A stretch of 64,000 bases of DNA from Chloroflexota bacterium (lineage in GTDB: Bacteria; Chloroflexota; UBA11872). The notes below the pieces were generated by a model. That model was given only the letters and a program-made list of their open reading frames with translations, made no database searches and was not told the origin of the DNA. The stretch's first letter is position 1, and each line of letters opens with the position of its first letter. The stretch lies in NCBI GenBank assembly GCA_022824865.1, contig JAJDZD010000013.1:79162-143161 (forward strand). Reading direction: 5' to 3'. Below, one piece after another: positions 9,091 to 41,032 of the stretch. The position numbers were made by a program, and so were the translations under genes.

Positions 9091-9414
9091 ATGAGCGCGG
9101 ACCTAGCCACGATGCTGGTGGCGACTGTGACCGTTGGCGTGAACCTGGCCGGCCCTACCCTGGCTCTTTGGCGTGGCGTGCGTACCGATATCCGCGCCAT
9201 GGAAGCGGGGCTGCGCGCCGACATCCGCGCGGTTGAAGCTAGCCTTCGTGCTGAAGACGCCGAACTTCGAGCTGATATCCGTGCTGTGCGAGCGGCTATT
9301 GACGCCGGCCGGCTGGCGCACGAGGCACTGCATGCGGCTGAGCGGCAGACTAGGGCAGACGAATGGCGCGAACTGTTGGCGACAATTGCAGGCAACCGGG
9401 AGGGCGCGCCATGA
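9091..9414 (+). CDS. Tandem TM + coiled-coil protein, copy 1
   Basis: MSADLATMLVATVTVGVNLAGPTLALWR then Ala/Glu/Arg-rich coiled coil; paralog of the next ORFs. Confidence 0.75.
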   Translation: MSADLATMLVATVTVGVNLAGPTLALWRGVRTDIRAMEAGLRADIRAVEASLRAEDAELRADIRAVRAAIDAGRLAHEALHAAERQTRADEWRELLATIAGNREGAP

Positions 9415-9776
9415 GCGCCGAACTCGTTGCAATCCTCGCGACCGTCGTGACGGTCGGCGTCGGACTGGCCGGACTCATCGTGGCTCTCTGGCGCGACTTA
9501 CGCGCCGAGGACGCCGAGCTTAGAGCCGATATACGCGCAGTACGCGCGGCTATTGACGCTGAACGGGTGTCACACGAGGGGCTACATGCCGCGGAGCGGC
9601 AGGCCAGGGCCGAGGAACGGCGCGAACTGCTGGCGGCCATCGATGCCGACCGTGCGGCACATGAGGCATTGCATGCGGCACATGAGTCATTGCATGCGGC
9701 GGAGCGGCAGGCCAGGGCCGACGAAAAGCGCGAATTGCTGGCAGCCATTGCCGCCATCCGAGAGGGTGCGTCATGA
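9411..9776 (+). CDS. Tandem TM + coiled-coil protein, copy 2
   Basis: MSAELVAILATVVTVGVGLAGLIVALWRD; ATGA overlap with copy 1. Confidence 0.8.
   Translation: MSAELVAILATVVTVGVGLAGLIVALWRDLRAEDAELRADIRAVRAAIDAERVSHEGLHAAERQARAEERRELLAAIDADRAAHEALHAAHESLHAAERQARADEKRELLAAIAAIREGAS
9660..9701 (+). repeat. 21-bp tandem repeat x2 adding one heptad
   Basis: catgaggcattgcatgcggca / catgagtcattgcatgcggcg encoding HEALHAA-HESLHAA. Confidence 0.9.
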
Positions 9777-10150
9777 GCGCCGAACTCGCCGCCATCCTTG
9801 CGACCGTAGTGACGGTCGGCGTCGGGCTGGCCGGACTAAACGTCGCACTCTGGCGCGATATGCGCGCCGAGCTTCGCGCAGTGGAAGCCAGCCTGCGTGC
9901 TGAAGATGCTGAGCTTCGATCCGACATCCGGTCCGTACGAGCGGCGATTGACGCTGAGCGCGTAGCGCATGAGACCTTACATGCCGCGGGGCAACAGGCC
10001 AGGGCCGAGGAACGACGCGAACTCCTGGCAGCGATCGACGCTGATCGCACCACGCGCGAGGCTCTCCATGCGTCGGAGCGGCAGGCGCGAGCCGACGAAC
10101 GGCGCGAACTCCTGGCGGCCATCGCAGCCATCCGAGAGGACGCCCCGTAA
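9773..10150 (+). CDS. Tandem TM + coiled-coil protein, copy 3
   Basis: MSAELAAILATVVTVGVGLAGLNVALWRD; ATGA overlap with copy 2. Confidence 0.8.
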   Translation: MSAELAAILATVVTVGVGLAGLNVALWRDMRAELRAVEASLRAEDAELRSDIRSVRAAIDAERVAHETLHAAGQQARAEERRELLAAIDADRTTREALHASERQARADERRELLAAIAAIREDAP

Positions 10151-10416
10151 ACGCTGATCTCGCCGCGATCCTCGCGGCTGTTGCAACGGTAGGAATCGGA
10201 CTGGCTGGCCTTACCGTGGCGCTGTGGCGTGATGTTCGCGCGGATATTCGCGAGTTGCGTGCATCAATCGACGCGGACCGAGTCGCACACGAGGAACTTC
10301 ACGCCGCCGAACGGCAGGCACGTGAGGAAGTAGGGAGGGAACTACTCATGGCAACTGCCACTACTCTAGACGACTTAGGGAAAGCGCCACAGCACGCGCC
10401 AACGTCAGACTCCTAG
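10147..10416 (+). pseudogene. Tandem TM + coiled-coil protein, copy 4, conserved start codon lost
   Basis: Frame reads (V)NADLAAILAAVATVGIGLAGLTVALWRDVRADIREL from codon GTA where the others have ATG; only a downstream GTG (10216) is available. Confidence 0.55.
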
Positions 10417-22780: not shown

Positions 22781-22972
22781 GGAGGAGTCCTTGGGGTGTG
22801 GAGACAGTGGCCGTGTCGGGCTACATGGTGGGGGCGGAGGCGCGGGGATTCAAGGGATTAGCCGCGGTTGGTGGCTAGCGGTGAGCGGTTAGATGCCAGG
22901 GTTCGTCGCGGCGCTGCCCCAGGAGGCTCTTGTCTAGCCCAAGGTTGGTTGCGCGGAAGACCCTCACCCCGA

Positions 22973-22993
22973 CCCTCTCCCACGGGGAGAGGG
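22973..22993. repeat. Intergenic hairpin ccctctccc-acg-gggagaggg
   Basis: Near-perfect 9-bp stem between ilvD and the mutarotase gene. Confidence 0.6.
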
Positions 22994-23052
22994 GGAAAGA
23001 GCAGCCGCAATTCCTATGGCGAGGGGCCCTTTTTGCATCGGTCTTCGTGGGT

Positions 23053-23396: not shown

Positions 23397-24323
23397 TTGG
23401 AGCATGCGCGGATTGCCGTGAATCGTCCACACACCTTTGCGGGAAACCCGCTGGATCGAGCGGAATACCAGCGGCGCGACGCGGACTGGCTGGAAGCACG
23501 CGAGCGGGATCCGGCGAGCCGGTTTCTTCCGCTGCGCAACCTGGACGTGCTGCTGGACGGCGAGGATCCGGCGCGGCTGGCGTGGGTGAGCAGCGCTTCG
23601 GCCGTTGGCCTGGAAGGGCCGAGGTTCCTACTGGGACTGCGAGACGGCGTGGCGCATTTCGCGCTGGACGTTAGCGACACCGAAGACGATCTGGCGTCCG
23701 GCAACGAGCGGCGCTTTGTGGATGTGCGGACGGCGGCGACGCTGCTGTCGGCGGAGGATGCGGGGATTACGGCGCAGGCGCGTTCGCAGGTGGACTGGCA
23801 CGCGCGGCACGGCTATTGCAGCGTGTGCGGAGAGCCGACCGAGGCGGTGCGGGGCGGCCAGCAGCGGACGTGCAGGAGTTGCGGGGCGGACCACTTTCCG
23901 CGGACCGACCCGGTGGTGATCGTGGTGGTGACGGACGGGAACCGTTGCCTGCTGGGACAGTCGCACGGGCGGCTGTCGCAGATGCGGATGTTCTCAGCGC
24001 TGGCGGGGTTTATGGACCAGGGGGAATCAATCGAAGAGGCGGTGCGGCGGGAGGTGTTGGAGGAGGCGGGCGTTCGGGTTGGGGAGGTGCGATATCACTC
24101 GTCGCAACCCTGGCCGTTTCCGTCGTCGCTGATGATTGGCTGTCACGCCGACGCGCTGACGACGGACTTGCGACCGGACAAGGTGGAAATGCTGTCCGTT
24201 CAGTGGTTCGAGCGGGCGACGGTACGGCGGGCGCTGGCCGGCGAGGACGACCAACTGCGGGTGCCGGCTTCCTTTGCCATCGCGCACCACCTGATCAGGG
24301 CCTGGGCGGAAGGTTTCGTCTAG
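23397..24323 (+). CDS. nudC: NAD(+) diphosphatase (Nudix)
   Basis: Zn ribbon CSVCG...CRSCG, Nudix box GFMDQGESIEEAVRREVLEEAGV, SQPWPFPSSLMIG. Confidence 0.92.
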   Translation: MEHARIAVNRPHTFAGNPLDRAEYQRRDADWLEARERDPASRFLPLRNLDVLLDGEDPARLAWVSSASAVGLEGPRFLLGLRDGVAHFALDVSDTEDDLASGNERRFVDVRTAATLLSAEDAGITAQARSQVDWHARHGYCSVCGEPTEAVRGGQQRTCRSCGADHFPRTDPVVIVVVTDGNRCLLGQSHGRLSQMRMFSALAGFMDQGESIEEAVRREVLEEAGVRVGEVRYHSSQPWPFPSSLMIGCHADALTTDLRPDKVEMLSVQWFERATVRRALAGEDDQLRVPASFAIAHHLIRAWAEGFV

Positions 24324-25162
24324 GACATCGGCGCTAGCGTGGAGCTAACGCTCGGACGCATCAGCCATTCATCCGAAATCCCTGTAAGTGCCCGACGGCC
24401 CCCCAGTCCGTCCGCCTCGTCCTCGCCTCGTTCCCCCCAAACGACTATCTCCGCAGTGGACAGGCCCATCCATCAGTGCTCACATCGGCAGTTTCAAGCC
24501 ACCGATGCTGCAGTGCTTGAGAATCCGCAATCTTCACCGCGCCCGTGCTCGCGCCACACTCTCGCCAAGCGCCCGATTCCCACGAGGCGTGCGGCACGGC
24601 GGGTAGCGGGCAGCAGGAGGCGGCATTCGGCTAGGTGACCTCAGCGACATTCCGGCGCTAGAGCGACGTTCGACCTCCGTTTAGTGAGCGGTTCTGTCAT
24701 TCAAGGGACGTTCGACAACGGTCACGTTGGCATCGACAGTCTCAGTGTCGCGATGGAGTACGAGGCGGTGGTGTCGAGCCATCGCGCCAATACGATGGGC
24801 CTCGGGGGCTGCCTATGGCAGCGCAGGCGAGCCTTGGCCCACGAGATCGCCGACGGGCGTGTCGTGGCGAAAAGCACGCGGGATGGAGCAGTTCGATGAT
24901 TGCCCGAAATCGCGCGGCGATACCGGCGCGGCTTTGGCCGTGGAGGCTCAAGAGCGGAGTTTTGGGTGCAGGGGTATTGGCAGTCGCAGGGCCAAGGCGA
25001 TGTGGCGAGCAGAAGCGGAGGGGCGAGGCGGCGCGACGAGAGAGTTAGGCTACTGGCTGTCGACCCGCCGCGTCATTTCGATCATGAGTTACGCAGGGGG
25101 CGCCCCCCAACGATCGCCGCATCCACTTGATGTCTTGGGGCTGATGGTGCTCCGTCAGTCGG

Positions 25163-26749
25163 GTGCGGGGCGCAGTGCCTAGCCTCTTGCTTAGAGTCTT
25201 CGTGTCGCCTTGCACAGGCAATCGGGCTCTTGTCGCCGCAATAGCAATCGTGTTGGGATTGACAGTGCTTGCATCAGGCTGCGGCATTGACGAGGAGACG
25301 TCGTCGGCCGCTGTCGAGCGGACGGAGAGGACCGAAAGCGCTGTCAGTCAAGACGAAGCGCCCAGCGAGGCGAAAGCCGACGATGGCAATGCGTCGGCGG
25401 ACGCAAGCGTTGGGAGGGGTTCGGTTTCGGCACAAACTCCCGTTGCCACAGCTCCTGTGGTCGCCGCGACACCTGACACGAGGATCGAGTCAGGTGCGGG
25501 AGCAGGCTTCAGGAACGCGCCCATGCGTGAGCCAACGTTTCCGTGCGGGCCATTCCTCGGAGGGTTCGCTAATTATTCCCACAGCATTGTGGAGTGGACA
25601 CCGGACGGATCCCGGCTGATCTTCGGTTTTCAGCACCAGCTGTGGGTTGTGGATCAGACGGGACGGGAGCTCCGGCGACTTGTGGATGCAAATCCAGGGC
25701 CGCGCCGGAAGTTTGGGTTTCGAGACGGTTTTCACGCGGATATTTCGCCGGACGGGCAGCAGGTGGTCTATACGTCGTGTGCCCATCGCAGCGACGACCC
25801 AATTCCTGCCCTTGATGGCAGTATTTATGAGGAAGGGACCCCCGCCTGGCGCGAGCGTTCCCATTTGAATTATGAATTGGCGGTGGTCGACATTGATGGT
25901 CGAGAGCCGCGGCGGCTGACGCACGATACGCGCTTTGACCACTTCCCGGCCTGGTCGCCCGATGGAACGCGAATAGCCTTTATCTCAGCGTCTGCCGATC
26001 GACGGTCCATTGACAATGACGAACTCCAGATATACCTGACGACGCCAAGCGGCGGGGGCGTACAGGTCGACGATTTGTCGGTCGGCTACGTTAGCTCGGG
26101 TCCACTGGCATGGTCACCAGACGGCGAGCGACTGGCGTATAGAAATGGCTATCTTGTATTTACAGTGAAGACTGGCTCTTATTTGACGGTCACGACTGAC
26201 ATGTCGACCACTACCTCGCTCTCGCCGTCTCCTGGTGACGTGCCGACGACGCAGCCTGATACATCCATGGTCCCCGTGTCCATGGTGACTGAGATTGGCC
26301 ACTCGGATATCGCGCCGTCGTGGTCGCCCGACGGCGAGTGGATCCTGACGGTGTCCGATGCGAGTGCAGGGTCGGCCTTCATCAGGGTGCGAGCCGACGG
26401 ACAGGCGAGCGAACCAATTGTCACGTTGTCGTCAATTGGAGTTGGGGTGCCGGTGTCCGAGGCGGCGTGGTCGCCGGACGGCTCGAAGATCGCGTTTGTT
26501 GCGGGGGGCATCTGGGTCGTTGATGCGGACGGTCGAAATGCACGCTTCTTACTTAGTGTCAGTGGTGGTCTCACACCGGCGGGGCGCGGCCATGTGGCCT
26601 GGTCGCCGGATAGCAAACAGATTGCGGCCTATTACTCCGGTGCCGGGCTGTTGTATGCGATTTCACTCGAGAACTTTGAACAGCGGCTCCTAGTGACAAA
26701 TGATGCCATGGAGGGCGTTCAGGCAGGGCAAGCGGTGCGGTCCAAGTGA
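25163..26749 (+). CDS. Secreted/lipoprotein beta-propeller (TolB/PD40-like repeats)
   Basis: Lipobox VLASGCG; repeated WSPDG motifs. Confidence 0.82.
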   Translation: MRGAVPSLLLRVFVSPCTGNRALVAAIAIVLGLTVLASGCGIDEETSSAAVERTERTESAVSQDEAPSEAKADDGNASADASVGRGSVSAQTPVATAPVVAATPDTRIESGAGAGFRNAPMREPTFPCGPFLGGFANYSHSIVEWTPDGSRLIFGFQHQLWVVDQTGRELRRLVDANPGPRRKFGFRDGFHADISPDGQQVVYTSCAHRSDDPIPALDGSIYEEGTPAWRERSHLNYELAVVDIDGREPRRLTHDTRFDHFPAWSPDGTRIAFISASADRRSIDNDELQIYLTTPSGGGVQVDDLSVGYVSSGPLAWSPDGERLAYRNGYLVFTVKTGSYLTVTTDMSTTTSLSPSPGDVPTTQPDTSMVPVSMVTEIGHSDIAPSWSPDGEWILTVSDASAGSAFIRVRADGQASEPIVTLSSIGVGVPVSEAAWSPDGSKIAFVAGGIWVVDADGRNARFLLSVSGGLTPAGRGHVAWSPDSKQIAAYYSGAGLLYAISLENFEQRLLVTNDAMEGVQAGQAVRSK

Positions 26750-26870
26750 CGCATGGACCGCGAGGGCCATGAGGCAGATCAGGCACACGTATCGGCACGC
26801 ATTGGACAACTTGCGGATGACGGGTTGATCAGTGCTGGGCGTTACTGCAAGGCCCAAATCGAAGAAGCCG

Positions 26871-27083
26871 TGGCCGTTTCCGTCGTCGCTGATGATCGGG
26901 TGCCACGCGGACGCGCTGACGACGGACTTGCGACCGGACAAGGTGGAGATGCTGTCCGTGCAGTGGTTCGAGCGGGCGACGGTACGGCGGGCGCTGGCCG
27001 GCGAGGACGACCAACTGCGGGTGCCGGCGTCGTTTGCGATCGCGCACCATCTGATCAGGGCGTGGGCAGAAGGCTCGGCGTGA
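26871..27083 (+). pseudogene. nudC 3'-end remnant, copy 2
   Basis: 213 bp colinear without indels with 24111-24323; differences mostly synonymous. Confidence 0.92.
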
Positions 27084-27141
27084 CCGACACGCTCGTATCC
27101 CGCGGTCCAGCACGCGATTCCGCCCGCGAGCAGCGCGTTAG

Positions 27142-28026
27142 TCATGGGTCGACCGCAATGCGGAAGCCGTGGCTGGCCAGGCGGCGTGTCGGGTCGCCGC
27201 GGTAGCGACGCGACGACAGCAGCTGATCGGGGCGCAGCTTGCCGAACGACCCGCCACGCAGGATGCGTCGGTCGGATGACGCGAACCGGTCCTGGCACCA
27301 CTCGTTCACGTTGCCGCCCAAGTCGTAGAACCCATAGGCGTTCGGCGTGAATGACCCAACGGGCGACGTGAACAGATGGCCGTCGTTGAAGCCCGGGATG
27401 CACGGCAGCGGGTCGTCGATCTGTTCGATCTCGGCCGCCGTGCGGTCGGGATAGTAGTGCCGGTACTCGTGTCGGAGTTCGCGAAACGCGGCCGCGTTGC
27501 CGCGCCACTCTTCACCCTGATAGTTGCCCGCGCCGCATGGTGGCGGCCACGACTCGCCCCACGGGTAGACGCCGGCTAGCCGGCAGTCCTTGCGCGCGGG
27601 TTCGGCCGCCGGGTTCTCCAGATGCCCGATGCCGACCGCGCAGCTCCACTCGTGATCGGTCGGCAGGCGGTGGGTTCGGCCCTCGCGTTCGCTGAGCCAG
27701 GCGCAAAACGACTGCGCGTCGTACCAGCTGATGTTGCCAACCGGGTGGTCCGGGCTCTCATGCCGGAAGGATTGAGGCCCGTGGTACTGGCGGCCCATAG
27801 CGACCCAATCACTAATCCGCACTGGCCATACGCCAAGCAGCACGTCCATGCCTGGAACCGGCAGAAACTCCACGCCGAGCAACCTCCCCGCGGGCCGGTC
27901 GTGCACCTTCAAGCGAGAGTCTGTCTTCTGGCGCTGGCGTCCCGCAACGACCCCATCATCCCGCGCCGCGCCTGTGGGTTCGATTGGTTGCCTGCGCGGA
28001 TGATCCGGCGCGTTCATGACCGTCAT
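27142..28026 (-). CDS. Formylglycine-generating enzyme / SUMF1 family protein
   Basis: PVGNISWYDAQSFCAWLS, LPTDHEWSCAV, PNAYGFYDLGGNVNEWCQDRF, RILRGGSF, HGFRIAVDP. Confidence 0.88.
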   Translation of the reverse strand: MTVMNAPDHPRRQPIEPTGAARDDGVVAGRQRQKTDSRLKVHDRPAGRLLGVEFLPVPGMDVLLGVWPVRISDWVAMGRQYHGPQSFRHESPDHPVGNISWYDAQSFCAWLSEREGRTHRLPTDHEWSCAVGIGHLENPAAEPARKDCRLAGVYPWGESWPPPCGAGNYQGEEWRGNAAAFRELRHEYRHYYPDRTAAEIEQIDDPLPCIPGFNDGHLFTSPVGSFTPNAYGFYDLGGNVNEWCQDRFASSDRRILRGGSFGKLRPDQLLSSRRYRGDPTRRLASHGFRIAVDP

Positions 28027-28043
28027 GAATCCGCCAACCAGTG

Positions 28044-28211
28044 CTGACCGCTGACCTGCGGCCTGACGACGCGGAGCGGCAGGCCTTGCGGTGGTGTGAG
28101 CGGGCCATGGCGCCGCGGGCGCTAGCCGGCGAGAACGTCGGGCTTCGGGTGCTGGCTTCCTTTGCGATCGCAAATCATCTGATTCGAGCGTGGGTAGAGG
28201 GTTCCGCGTAG
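28044..28211 (+). pseudogene. nudC 3'-end remnant, copy 3 (divergent)
   Basis: Frame reads LTADLRPDDAERQALRWCERAMAPRALAGENVGLRVLASFAIANHLIRAWVEGSA*, colinear with the NudC C-terminus. Confidence 0.85.
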
Positions 28212-28310
28212 CCGCTAGGTCCAACCACCCAATACGCTCCATTACGTACACCCATGCGACAACAGTTCAAACGACCAAGACCTATTCGAGTTAGAGCGAC
28301 AACTGATGGT

Positions 28311-37748: not shown

Positions 37749-38995
37749 ACCGGTCTCCCCAGGTCGCGCGGCTCTGGGGCCTGGCGCGGCAGCACGGGAT
37801 GGACCGGCGGCGATTCTTTCAGGCGCTGACGGCTGGCGGGGCGGCGGCGGTGCTGGCGGCGTGCGTGGAGCCGCGCGATGCCGAGCAGGCTGCGGCGACC
37901 GACAGCGCGGCAAGAGCGGCATCGCCCGCGCCGGGGCCGGCCTGGTTCAAGGACACGTCGCCGTTCATCGTGCACGACGACGGGAAGAGCCTGGAAGCGC
38001 GGCTGGAGAACATGCAGGGGTTGATTACGCCGGTGCGGTACTTCTTCGTGCGCAACAACTCGGTGAGCCTGGACGTGGACGTGGAGAGTTGGCGGCTGTC
38101 AATTGAGGGCGACGCGGTTACCAGTCCGATCCAGTTGAAGTACGACGACATCCGCCAGATGCCGAGCCGCACGCTCGTTTCCTACCTGGAGTGCGCGGGG
38201 AACCACCGGGCGATGTTCGACCTGGTGAGGGGTCAGAAGGCCAAGGGGACGCAGTGGAGAACGGGCGGCGTTGGGAACGGGGAGTGGACCGGGGTCCCGC
38301 TGGGTGAGTTGCTGCGGCTGGCCGGAGTTACCGATGATGCCGCAAACGTGTTGCTGATCGGACTGGATACGGAGTCGCCAGAGGAAGGCTTCCGGCGCGT
38401 GGTGTCCGCCGAAAAGGCCCTGCACCCGGACACGTTGCTGGCCTACGGGATGAACGGAGAAGCGCTGCCACGGGATCATGGGTTTCCGCTGCGGGCGCTG
38501 ATTCCCGGCTGGGTGGGCAGCACGAACGTGAAATGGCTGGGGCGGATCGTGGTGTCGAAGAGCCCGATCTGGACGCGGAATAACACGACCTCGTACGTGC
38601 TGATCGGGGACTCGTACCGGCCGGAGGGCGAGGCCTCGGGGAAGGTGACGACGACGCAGGTGATCAAGAGCGCGCTGGCGCTGCCCTGGCCGGCCGAGTT
38701 GGAGGCCGAGACGCGACGAATCCACGGGTTTGCGCACTCGCCGGACGGGCCTATCGATCGGGTGGAGTGGAGCGTGGACTCGGGACGGACCTGGAAGCCG
38801 GTGGAGGCTCTAACGCCGCAGGTGCAGTACTCGTGGGCGCGGTTCGAGTTTGGGTGGGATCCGCGGCCGGGCGAGTACACGATCATGACGCGGGCCACGG
38901 ACGCGGTAGGGAATACGCAGCCGGAGGAGATTCCATTCAACGAGAAGGGGTACCTGTTCAACCAGCCGCTGCCGCATCCGGTGCGGGTGACCTGA
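37745..38995 (+). CDS. Sulfite oxidase-family molybdopterin-dependent oxidoreductase, Tat-type N-terminus
   Basis: MDRRRFFQALTAGGAAAVLAAC; LVSYLECAGNHRAMF; DHGFPLRALIPGWVGSTNVKWLGRI. Confidence 0.92.
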   Translation: MNRSPQVARLWGLARQHGMDRRRFFQALTAGGAAAVLAACVEPRDAEQAAATDSAARAASPAPGPAWFKDTSPFIVHDDGKSLEARLENMQGLITPVRYFFVRNNSVSLDVDVESWRLSIEGDAVTSPIQLKYDDIRQMPSRTLVSYLECAGNHRAMFDLVRGQKAKGTQWRTGGVGNGEWTGVPLGELLRLAGVTDDAANVLLIGLDTESPEEGFRRVVSAEKALHPDTLLAYGMNGEALPRDHGFPLRALIPGWVGSTNVKWLGRIVVSKSPIWTRNNTTSYVLIGDSYRPEGEASGKVTTTQVIKSALALPWPAELEAETRRIHGFAHSPDGPIDRVEWSVDSGRTWKPVEALTPQVQYSWARFEFGWDPRPGEYTIMTRATDAVGNTQPEEIPFNEKGYLFNQPLPHPVRVT

Positions 38996-39023
38996 CATAG
39001 GCGAGCGGAGCGCCATAGGACAC

Positions 39024-40004
39024 ATGAGCAACCAGTCGACCTCAGCGCCCGTCCTTCGCGTCGAAGACCTGGGGATGTATTACGGGACGCGGTCGGGTGA
39101 CGTGAAGGCGGTGGACGGCGTTTCGTTTGCGGTGGGGCGCGGGGAGTCGGTTGGGCTGGTGGGGGAGTCGGGCTGTGGGAAGTCGTCCATTGCGATGACG
39201 CTGCTGAAGCTGCTGCCGGAGAACGGGCGGATCGTTGGTGGAAAGATTCTGCTGGACGGGACGGACCTGGCGCCGCTGTCGGAAGACCAGATGCGGACGC
39301 ATCGCTGGAACCGGATCGCGATGGTGTTCCAGGCGGCGATGAACTCGTTCAACCCGGTCTATACGGTCGGGGACCAGATCATCGAGGCGCTGGAGGTGCA
39401 CATCGAGACGAGTCCGGACGTGTCGATGGAGCGGGTGCGGGAGCTGTTTGAGCTGGTGAGCCTGGACCCGGGCTTCATTGGGCGCTATCCGCACGAGTAC
39501 AGCGGGGGGATGAAACAGCGGGCGGGCATCGCGATGGCGCTGGCCTGCGAGCCGGATCTGCTGATCGCGGACGAGCCGACGACGGCGCTGGACGTGATCG
39601 TGCAGGACCGCATCCTAAAGGAACTGCGGGACGTGCAGCAGGCGCTGAACATGAGCCTGATCTACATCTCGCACGACATGGCGGTGATCGCCGAGGTGAG
39701 CCACACGGTGGGGGTGATGTACGCGGGGCGGATCGTGGAGTGGGGCGAGACGGTGGATATCTTCCGGAACCCGATGCACCCGTATACGCAGACGCTGATG
39801 TCGGCGTTTCCCAGCGTGACCGGGCCGAAGCACGAACTGGCGATGCTGGGCGGCGAGCCGCCGAATCTGCTGAACCCGCCGTCGGGTTGCCGGTTCCATC
39901 CGCGGTGTCCGTACGCGACAGACGTTTGCAAGTCCGCAGAGCCGCCGAGGGTCGAGGGGTCGGATACGCACTGGGCGGCGTGCTGGCACCCGTTGGAGGC
40001 GTAG
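39024..40004 (+). CDS. ABC transporter ATP-binding protein (DppD-like)
   Basis: GESGCGKSS, YSGGMKQRAGIAMAL, LIADEPTTALD. Confidence 0.95.
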   Translation: MSNQSTSAPVLRVEDLGMYYGTRSGDVKAVDGVSFAVGRGESVGLVGESGCGKSSIAMTLLKLLPENGRIVGGKILLDGTDLAPLSEDQMRTHRWNRIAMVFQAAMNSFNPVYTVGDQIIEALEVHIETSPDVSMERVRELFELVSLDPGFIGRYPHEYSGGMKQRAGIAMALACEPDLLIADEPTTALDVIVQDRILKELRDVQQALNMSLIYISHDMAVIAEVSHTVGVMYAGRIVEWGETVDIFRNPMHPYTQTLMSAFPSVTGPKHELAMLGGEPPNLLNPPSGCRFHPRCPYATDVCKSAEPPRVEGSDTHWAACWHPLEA

Positions 40005-40009
40005 GCGGC

Positions 40010-41032
40010 ATGGCTGTAGCGGACACGGGTGTTACAGAAGTCGGAACCAGGCCGCTGATCAAGGTGGAGGGGCTGGAGAAGCGGTTTCCGGTGGCCTCGC
40101 ACTGGTTCCGGCGCAGTCATAGCTCGGTGCACGCGGTGGATGGGATCTCGTTCGAGCTGGCGCGCGGGGAGAGCTTTGGCCTGGTGGGCGAGTCGGGCTG
40201 CGGCAAGACGACGACGGGTCGGCTGCTGGTGCGGCTGGCCGAGCCGACGGGCGGGCACGTGCTGTTCGACGACGGCGAGGGCGCCGCCACCGACATCACG
40301 ACGCTGCGCGGCGAGGAGCTGAAGTCCTTTCGGCGCAAGGCGCAAATGATCTTCCAGGATCCGTACGAGTCGCTGAACCCGCGGCGGACGATCTTCGACA
40401 CGGTGGCCGAGCCGCTGAAGGTCCAGGACGCCTGCCCGCCGCTGGAGCGGCTGGATCGGGTGTCGCGCATGCTGGAAATGGTGGGGCTGTCGCCGCCCGC
40501 GACCTACCTGTTCCGGTACCCGCACGAGCTGTCGGGCGGGCAACGGCAGCGGGTGGCGATCGCGCGGGCGCTGATTATCGAGCCGATCTTCGTGGTGGCC
40601 GACGAGCCGACCTCGATGCTGGACGTCTCGATCCGAACCGGCGTGATGAACCTGATGGAGAGCCTGGCGGAGCGCCTCGGCATCAGCTACCTCTATATCA
40701 CCCACGACCTGGCCGTGGCCCGCTACATGTGCTCCCGCATCGCCGTGATGTACCTCGGCAAGATCGTCGAAATGGGCGACACCGAGGCCGTCCTCCAACA
40801 CCCCAAGCACCCCTACACCCAGGCCCTCCTCTCAGCCGTCCCAATCCCTGACCCCACCGCCACCCGCGCCCCCGTCCAAATCACCGGCGGCGTCGCCACC
40901 CCCCTCGACCCACCACCCCGCTGCCGCTTCTACAGCCGCTGCCCGATTGCGGATGACTTCTGTCGCGACAACCCGCATCCGCCGCTGGAGACAAAGGGGG
41001 ATGGGCAGCGGGTGGCCTGTTACAACGCGTAA
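40010..41032 (+). CDS. ABC transporter ATP-binding protein (DppF-like)
   Basis: [35 protein letters not shown]. Confidence 0.95.

Follow-up and report, generated by a model that had tools for sequence, protein, structure and literature searches.

Displaced gene ends downstream of nudC in a Chloroflexota bacterium: a probable spot of recurrent insertion

Hotspots lacking mobile elements are a broader known class (PMC5635113). The interval between nudC and a peptide ABC transporter operon of a Chloroflexota bacterium, analysed here, resembles them in its conserved flanking genes, its small variable cargo and the lack of an integrase, while it differs in that the old gene end is left at each event and in that one joint is apparently illegitimate. 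As every event leaves the old end in place, the order of the events can be read. Moreover, homology-facilitated illegitimate recombination, described in competent bacteria, combines one homologous and one illegitimate joint, the latter usually at a microhomology of 3–10 bp (PMC3240628). The nudC case would share with it an anchored side, a broken joint and foreign DNA of a few kb, whereas it is reconstructed from fossils rather than observed. Finally, prophage e14 at icd rebuilds the gene with an alternative 3′ end, the former end (163 bp) being moved to the far side (PMC6379469). The likeness to e14 is confined to the outcome, a rebuilt gene and a displaced old end, since e14 is a prophage with site-specific integration, whereas neither a recombinase (integrase gene) nor a fixed break (crossover point) was found at nudC. 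Overall, the nudC locus belongs to a hotspot type that is already known and preserves it well. Nothing points to a new mobile element or system, and the ordinary recombination machinery of the cell is most likely behind the insertions. As the rebuilt nudC is intact and the displaced ends are retained, the events can also be ordered by decay, and the possible entry of genes into a genome without the help of a mobile element can be read here with unusual clarity. The locus also suggests a simple way to search uncultivated bacteria for such fossils, namely to look for orphan tails of a gene behind its intact copy.

The nudC locus and its three tail copies

The window, that is, the whole stretch of 64,000 nucleotides analysed, is part of contig C34 of a genome (G000) of 3.52 Mb in 80 contigs, from a bacterium of probable sponge origin. 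The best nudC relatives were uncultivated Chloroflexota assemblies, with 85–91% NudC identity. The comparison set consisted of 12 congeners (G001–G011 among them) and 6 sister-genus genomes, giving 19 family genomes including G000. The order ilvD, mutarotase-like gene, nudC and, further on, the peptide ABC transporter operon was preserved in 10 congeners and, wherever the contigs extended far enough, in the sister genus; G002 and G003 differed downstream. In the transporter-gene tree, G010 was placed outside (G000,(G004,(G001,G006))), with a moderate support of 0.71 for the G000 branch. The repeat CCCTCACCCC..CCCTCTCCCACGGGGAGAGGG was observed beside ilvD (window 22960–22995) and also in the G001 insert (L090, about 1924–1962). 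The nudC copies and the right anchor of the interval were as follows:

23397–24323, plus strand: nudC (NADH pyrophosphatase), intact, 308 aa (PF00293, PF09296, PF09297)
24099/24111–24323, plus strand: copy 1, the last 213 bp of the intact nudC, end type T1, matching the tail of the intact nudC in G001 and in G006
26866–27083, plus strand: copy 2, an orphan nudC 3′ end, end type T2, colinear with the nudC–FGE junction of G004 and G010
28043–28211, plus strand: copy 3, an old, decayed nudC 3′ end; eight or more other congeners have a homologous remnant at the equivalent position
33432–41032, plus strand: peptide ABC transporter operon, the conserved right anchor of the interval

In the NudC protein, which is complete, Pfam detected a rudimentary Nudix, a zinc-ribbon and a Nudix domain. 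All three same-orientation copies of the nudC end proposed in a preliminary description were recovered by sequence comparison, and a whole-genome search for the tail found only these three, all on the contig of the window. Copy 2 had the same length and frame as copy 1, as had been proposed (93.7% identity over 206 bp, E about 1e−85), its start being moved from 26871 to 26866, where colinearity with the relatives begins. Copy 3 was 73–75% identical to the nudC end (E about 1e−19 to 1e−25). At the nudC loci of other genomes, a protein search detected extra nudC tails only in close congeners. An assembly or binning artefact, by which the contig would be chimeric, is extremely improbable: the window does come from a fragmented assembly, but the order copy 2–FGE–copy 3 and both outer anchors agree with separate assemblies of relatives, comparable inserts occupy the equivalent place in other genomes, and the copies are not identical (94% and 73%) and so are not a single repeat assembled twice.

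The copies differed in age. A total of 13 differences separated copies 1 and 2 over 204 bp, all 13 at third codon positions (p = 6e−7). This argues that selection at the protein level still acted on copy 2 not long ago and that its orphaning is recent, and it is the pattern to be expected of two functional alleles newly brought together. The 45 differences of copy 3 were spread over the codon (22 at third, 13 at second and 10 at first positions), which indicates that this copy is old. Furthermore, the tails of copies 1 and 2 formed a mosaic. The last 61 bp of copy 1 were only 78.7% identical to their counterpart in copy 2, while the middle tract differed at just 2 of 110 sites, compared with 11 of the other 94 (p = 0.007, for a tract picked after inspection), and showed four variants common to both copies that were absent or nearly absent in the relatives. 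This hints at gene conversion between the copies, or at a crossover there. The trees of the nudC body and tail had support too weak to place copy 1.

The near-identical middle tract with its four rare variants would also suit a local duplication in which the nudC tail was copied in tandem inside a single genome and unrelated DNA then arrived between the copies. However, the outer parts of copies 1 and 2 and the sequences downstream of them were of two end types, T1 and T2, whose matches lie in different relatives, and a duplication would yield identical ends; such a duplication is thus disfavoured and considered unlikely.

Origin of the DNA between nudC and the transporter operon

The following features were found between the copies and beyond copy 3:

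24324–24602, plus strand: segment D, directly 3′ of copy 1, homologous to sequences of G010, G001 and G006
24807–25079, no strand assigned: non-coding, decayed segment with 67.5% identity to sequence next to a PD40 gene in G005 (contig C52)
25079–26839, plus strand: operon scrap containing a PD40 lipoprotein gene, with 81% identity to an operon located elsewhere in G004
27142–27954, minus strand: FGE-sulfatase-like gene, about 270 aa (PF03781)
28311–29267, minus strand: small partner of the nSTAND NTPase, with no credible family match
29236–32652, minus strand: nSTAND NTPase gene (PF25199)

The two relatives matching copy 2 help to place it. FGE lies directly after the intact nudC end in G004 and G010, and copy 2 together with its downstream sequence was 92% (G004) and 89% (G010) identical to this junction over 335 bp. 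The sequence after the copy 1 stop codon resembled instead what follows nudC in G001 and G006 and what follows copy 3 in G010. In particular, segment D was 70% identical to the G010 sequence after copy 3 and, over 141 bp, 70% identical to the G001 sequence after nudC, and it matched the first 35–38 bp after the intact nudC of G006. The simplest reading of these matches is that copy 2 is the former resident nudC end, before which another nudC end was set together with its own downstream sequence.

The FGE gene and copy 3 belong to an older layer. FGE was found in 11 of the 19 family genomes, G000 included, as a single copy always at nudC, and it was absent from G002, G003 and all 6 sister-genus genomes. 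A longer ORF of 369 aa starting at 28251 is probably spurious, since the ORFs of the relatives are mostly 271 aa. The decayed nudC tail after FGE was present in G000 and at least eight other genomes, with a doubtful trace in G007 and G011, while the same nudC–transporter interval of the sister genus held neither FGE nor a nudC copy, and other small ORFs were found there instead. As FGE and copy 3 are common to the relatives, they represent an old arrangement, ancestral to the subclade, and do not belong to any recent array.

Between copies 1 and 2, the order from left to right was segment D, the G005-like segment and the operon scrap, the last comprising the very end of a metalloprotease gene (its last codons), the PD40 gene in full (25163–26749; PF07676) and around 24 codons of the gene that follows. 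At 67–76% identity, PD40 orthologues were located at other loci in G004, G008 and G009. In G004, the gene lies between genes of fibronectin/metalloprotease type and cadherin/LRR type (typed by eye), and the G000 scrap is broken within both neighbouring genes of this three-gene operon. The insert is thus a patchwork with ends inside genes, which argues against a cassette with defined ends. The cargo first described between the copies, a PD40 gene and then an FGE-family gene, was borne out by Pfam (PF07676 and PF03781). PD40 proteins form a large family across the genus, with 14 matches in G000 and up to 43 in one relative.

After copy 3, the preliminary description had placed a STAND/HEPN operon, of which the nSTAND NTPase was recovered, but the partner had no Pfam HEPN match. 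Among the 19 family genomes, the nSTAND NTPase gene was found in G000 alone, where it is inserted between copy 3 and the transporter operon, and PADLOC returned no credible match. It is possible that the NTPase and its partner are a defence pair, a guess from the domain alone.

The content of the nudC–transporter interval varied across genomes: the PD40 scrap and the nSTAND pair in G000, a methyltransferase in G001 and G006, metalloprotease-like, PD40-like and LRR-like ORFs in G010, and toxin–antitoxin-like or NYN-like ORFs (by eye) in the sister genus. In the G001/G006 insert, the methyltransferase was accompanied by a remnant in which nudC residues from about 86 to 143 are fused to the final 24 bp in front of FGE. 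In G010 (L097, 4735–7293), T1-D came after copy 3, and between it and the transporter operon lay, in this order, a short metalloprotease-like ORF with HEAGH, a PD40 gene that has diverged (about 30%) and an LRR-like stretch. The first proposal of repeated insertion at the nudC 3′ end, with alternative and displaced ends, agrees with this comparison, as the inserts of the interval differed from species to species and the sister genus lacked FGE and the copies there.

Routes of insertion

The interval is probably a recurrent insertion spot that lacks a recombinase of its own, with a homologous joint in nudC and an illegitimate joint on the opposite side. Incoming DNA of a relative would bring a nudC end with its flanking sequence. 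On the left, the donor end would recombine homologously with the resident nudC, while on the right illegitimate recombination would join the insert to a point inside the resident gene, so that nudC would be rebuilt with the donor 3′ end and the orphaned resident 3′ end would stay behind. The locus would record two or more such events, an older one common to the subclade, which may have brought FGE and left copy 3, and a younger one on the G000 line, which may have brought T1, segment D and the PD40 operon scrap and left copy 2; the insert in G001 and G006 would be a comparable one with a different remnant. Sequence comparison showed the homology, the colinearity, the relative ages, the changing content and the scrap-like nature of the cargo, and it found no recombinase nearby; from this we infer the uptake of DNA, by transformation or otherwise, as well as the nature of both joints and the donor. 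The left side lies within nudC homology and the right joint is broken inside genes. No donor sequence was found in which T1, D and PD40 are arranged exactly as here, and neither joint can therefore be read against both parents. The joints of the FGE event are uninformative because of its age. Moreover, this recurrent insertion by one homologous and one illegitimate joint needs a later gene conversion or crossover in the near-identical middle tract of copies 1 and 2. It also requires that T1-D inserts, present in G000 and in G001/G006 and missing from G004, were either gained twice or gained once and lost, and recombination between copies 1 and 2 would be a route to clean loss of an insert.

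Regarding the machinery, a ComEC-family gene was present in all five genomes tested. Genes of this family are widespread and are no proof of competence, and in the laboratory homology-facilitated illegitimate recombination occurs rarely, which counts against the preferred explanation. Ku was not found in any of the five genomes tested, and Ku end joining was set aside for this reason.

The mobilising recombinase acting at a fixed site, as first supposed, did not find support. No tyrosine integrase matched at the nudC locus, nor did Pfam detect one in its main ORFs, and the search in trans returned three tyrosine recombinases, all away from the locus on contigs C46, C42 and C9. As an alternative, such a recombinase might act in trans and integrate small elements site-specifically at the nudC 3′ end, each element carrying its own nudC end, as e14 does at icd. 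Besides the presence of the three recombinases, this would suit the start of copy 2 at a conserved WPFPSSLM-encoding block, as expected of an attachment core, the identity of the block TGGCCGTTTCCGTCGTCGCTGATGAT in most relatives and the rebuilding of nudC with a different yet coding 3′ end, as in e14/icd (PMC6379469). However, neither a recombinase nor an element backbone was seen in or near the inserts, the PD40 insert terminates in pieces of other genes, and the remnants start at three different nudC codons, which for copy 2 is about 238, for copy 3 about 253 and for G001 and G006 about 86 or earlier, although later deletions could be a partial source of these differences. This reading appears quite unlikely, and an integrase-type element was rejected as the main explanation because the breaks vary and no recombinase was found nearby.

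The nudC ends might also be movable homology handles, with blocks of a nudC end plus cargo being excised and re-inserted at any copy through ordinary recombination, as an integrase-free shuffled array. The block type with T1-D and PD40 was found behind copy 1 in G000 and behind copy 3 in G010. Such an array is very unlikely.

Finally, a scan of 304 kb of the genome for orphan gene tails retrieved nudC together with matches in three other stretches, most of them in L137; repeat-domain genes are a possible cause of these matches. Two further repeated regions were observed in the window, namely a cluster of short, diverged direct repeats (9212–10252) and a tandem direct repeat of 786 bp and 88% identity (58523–60215), the latter holding two minus-strand ORFs of 187 aa that resemble a duplicated gene (Uma2-like by eye).
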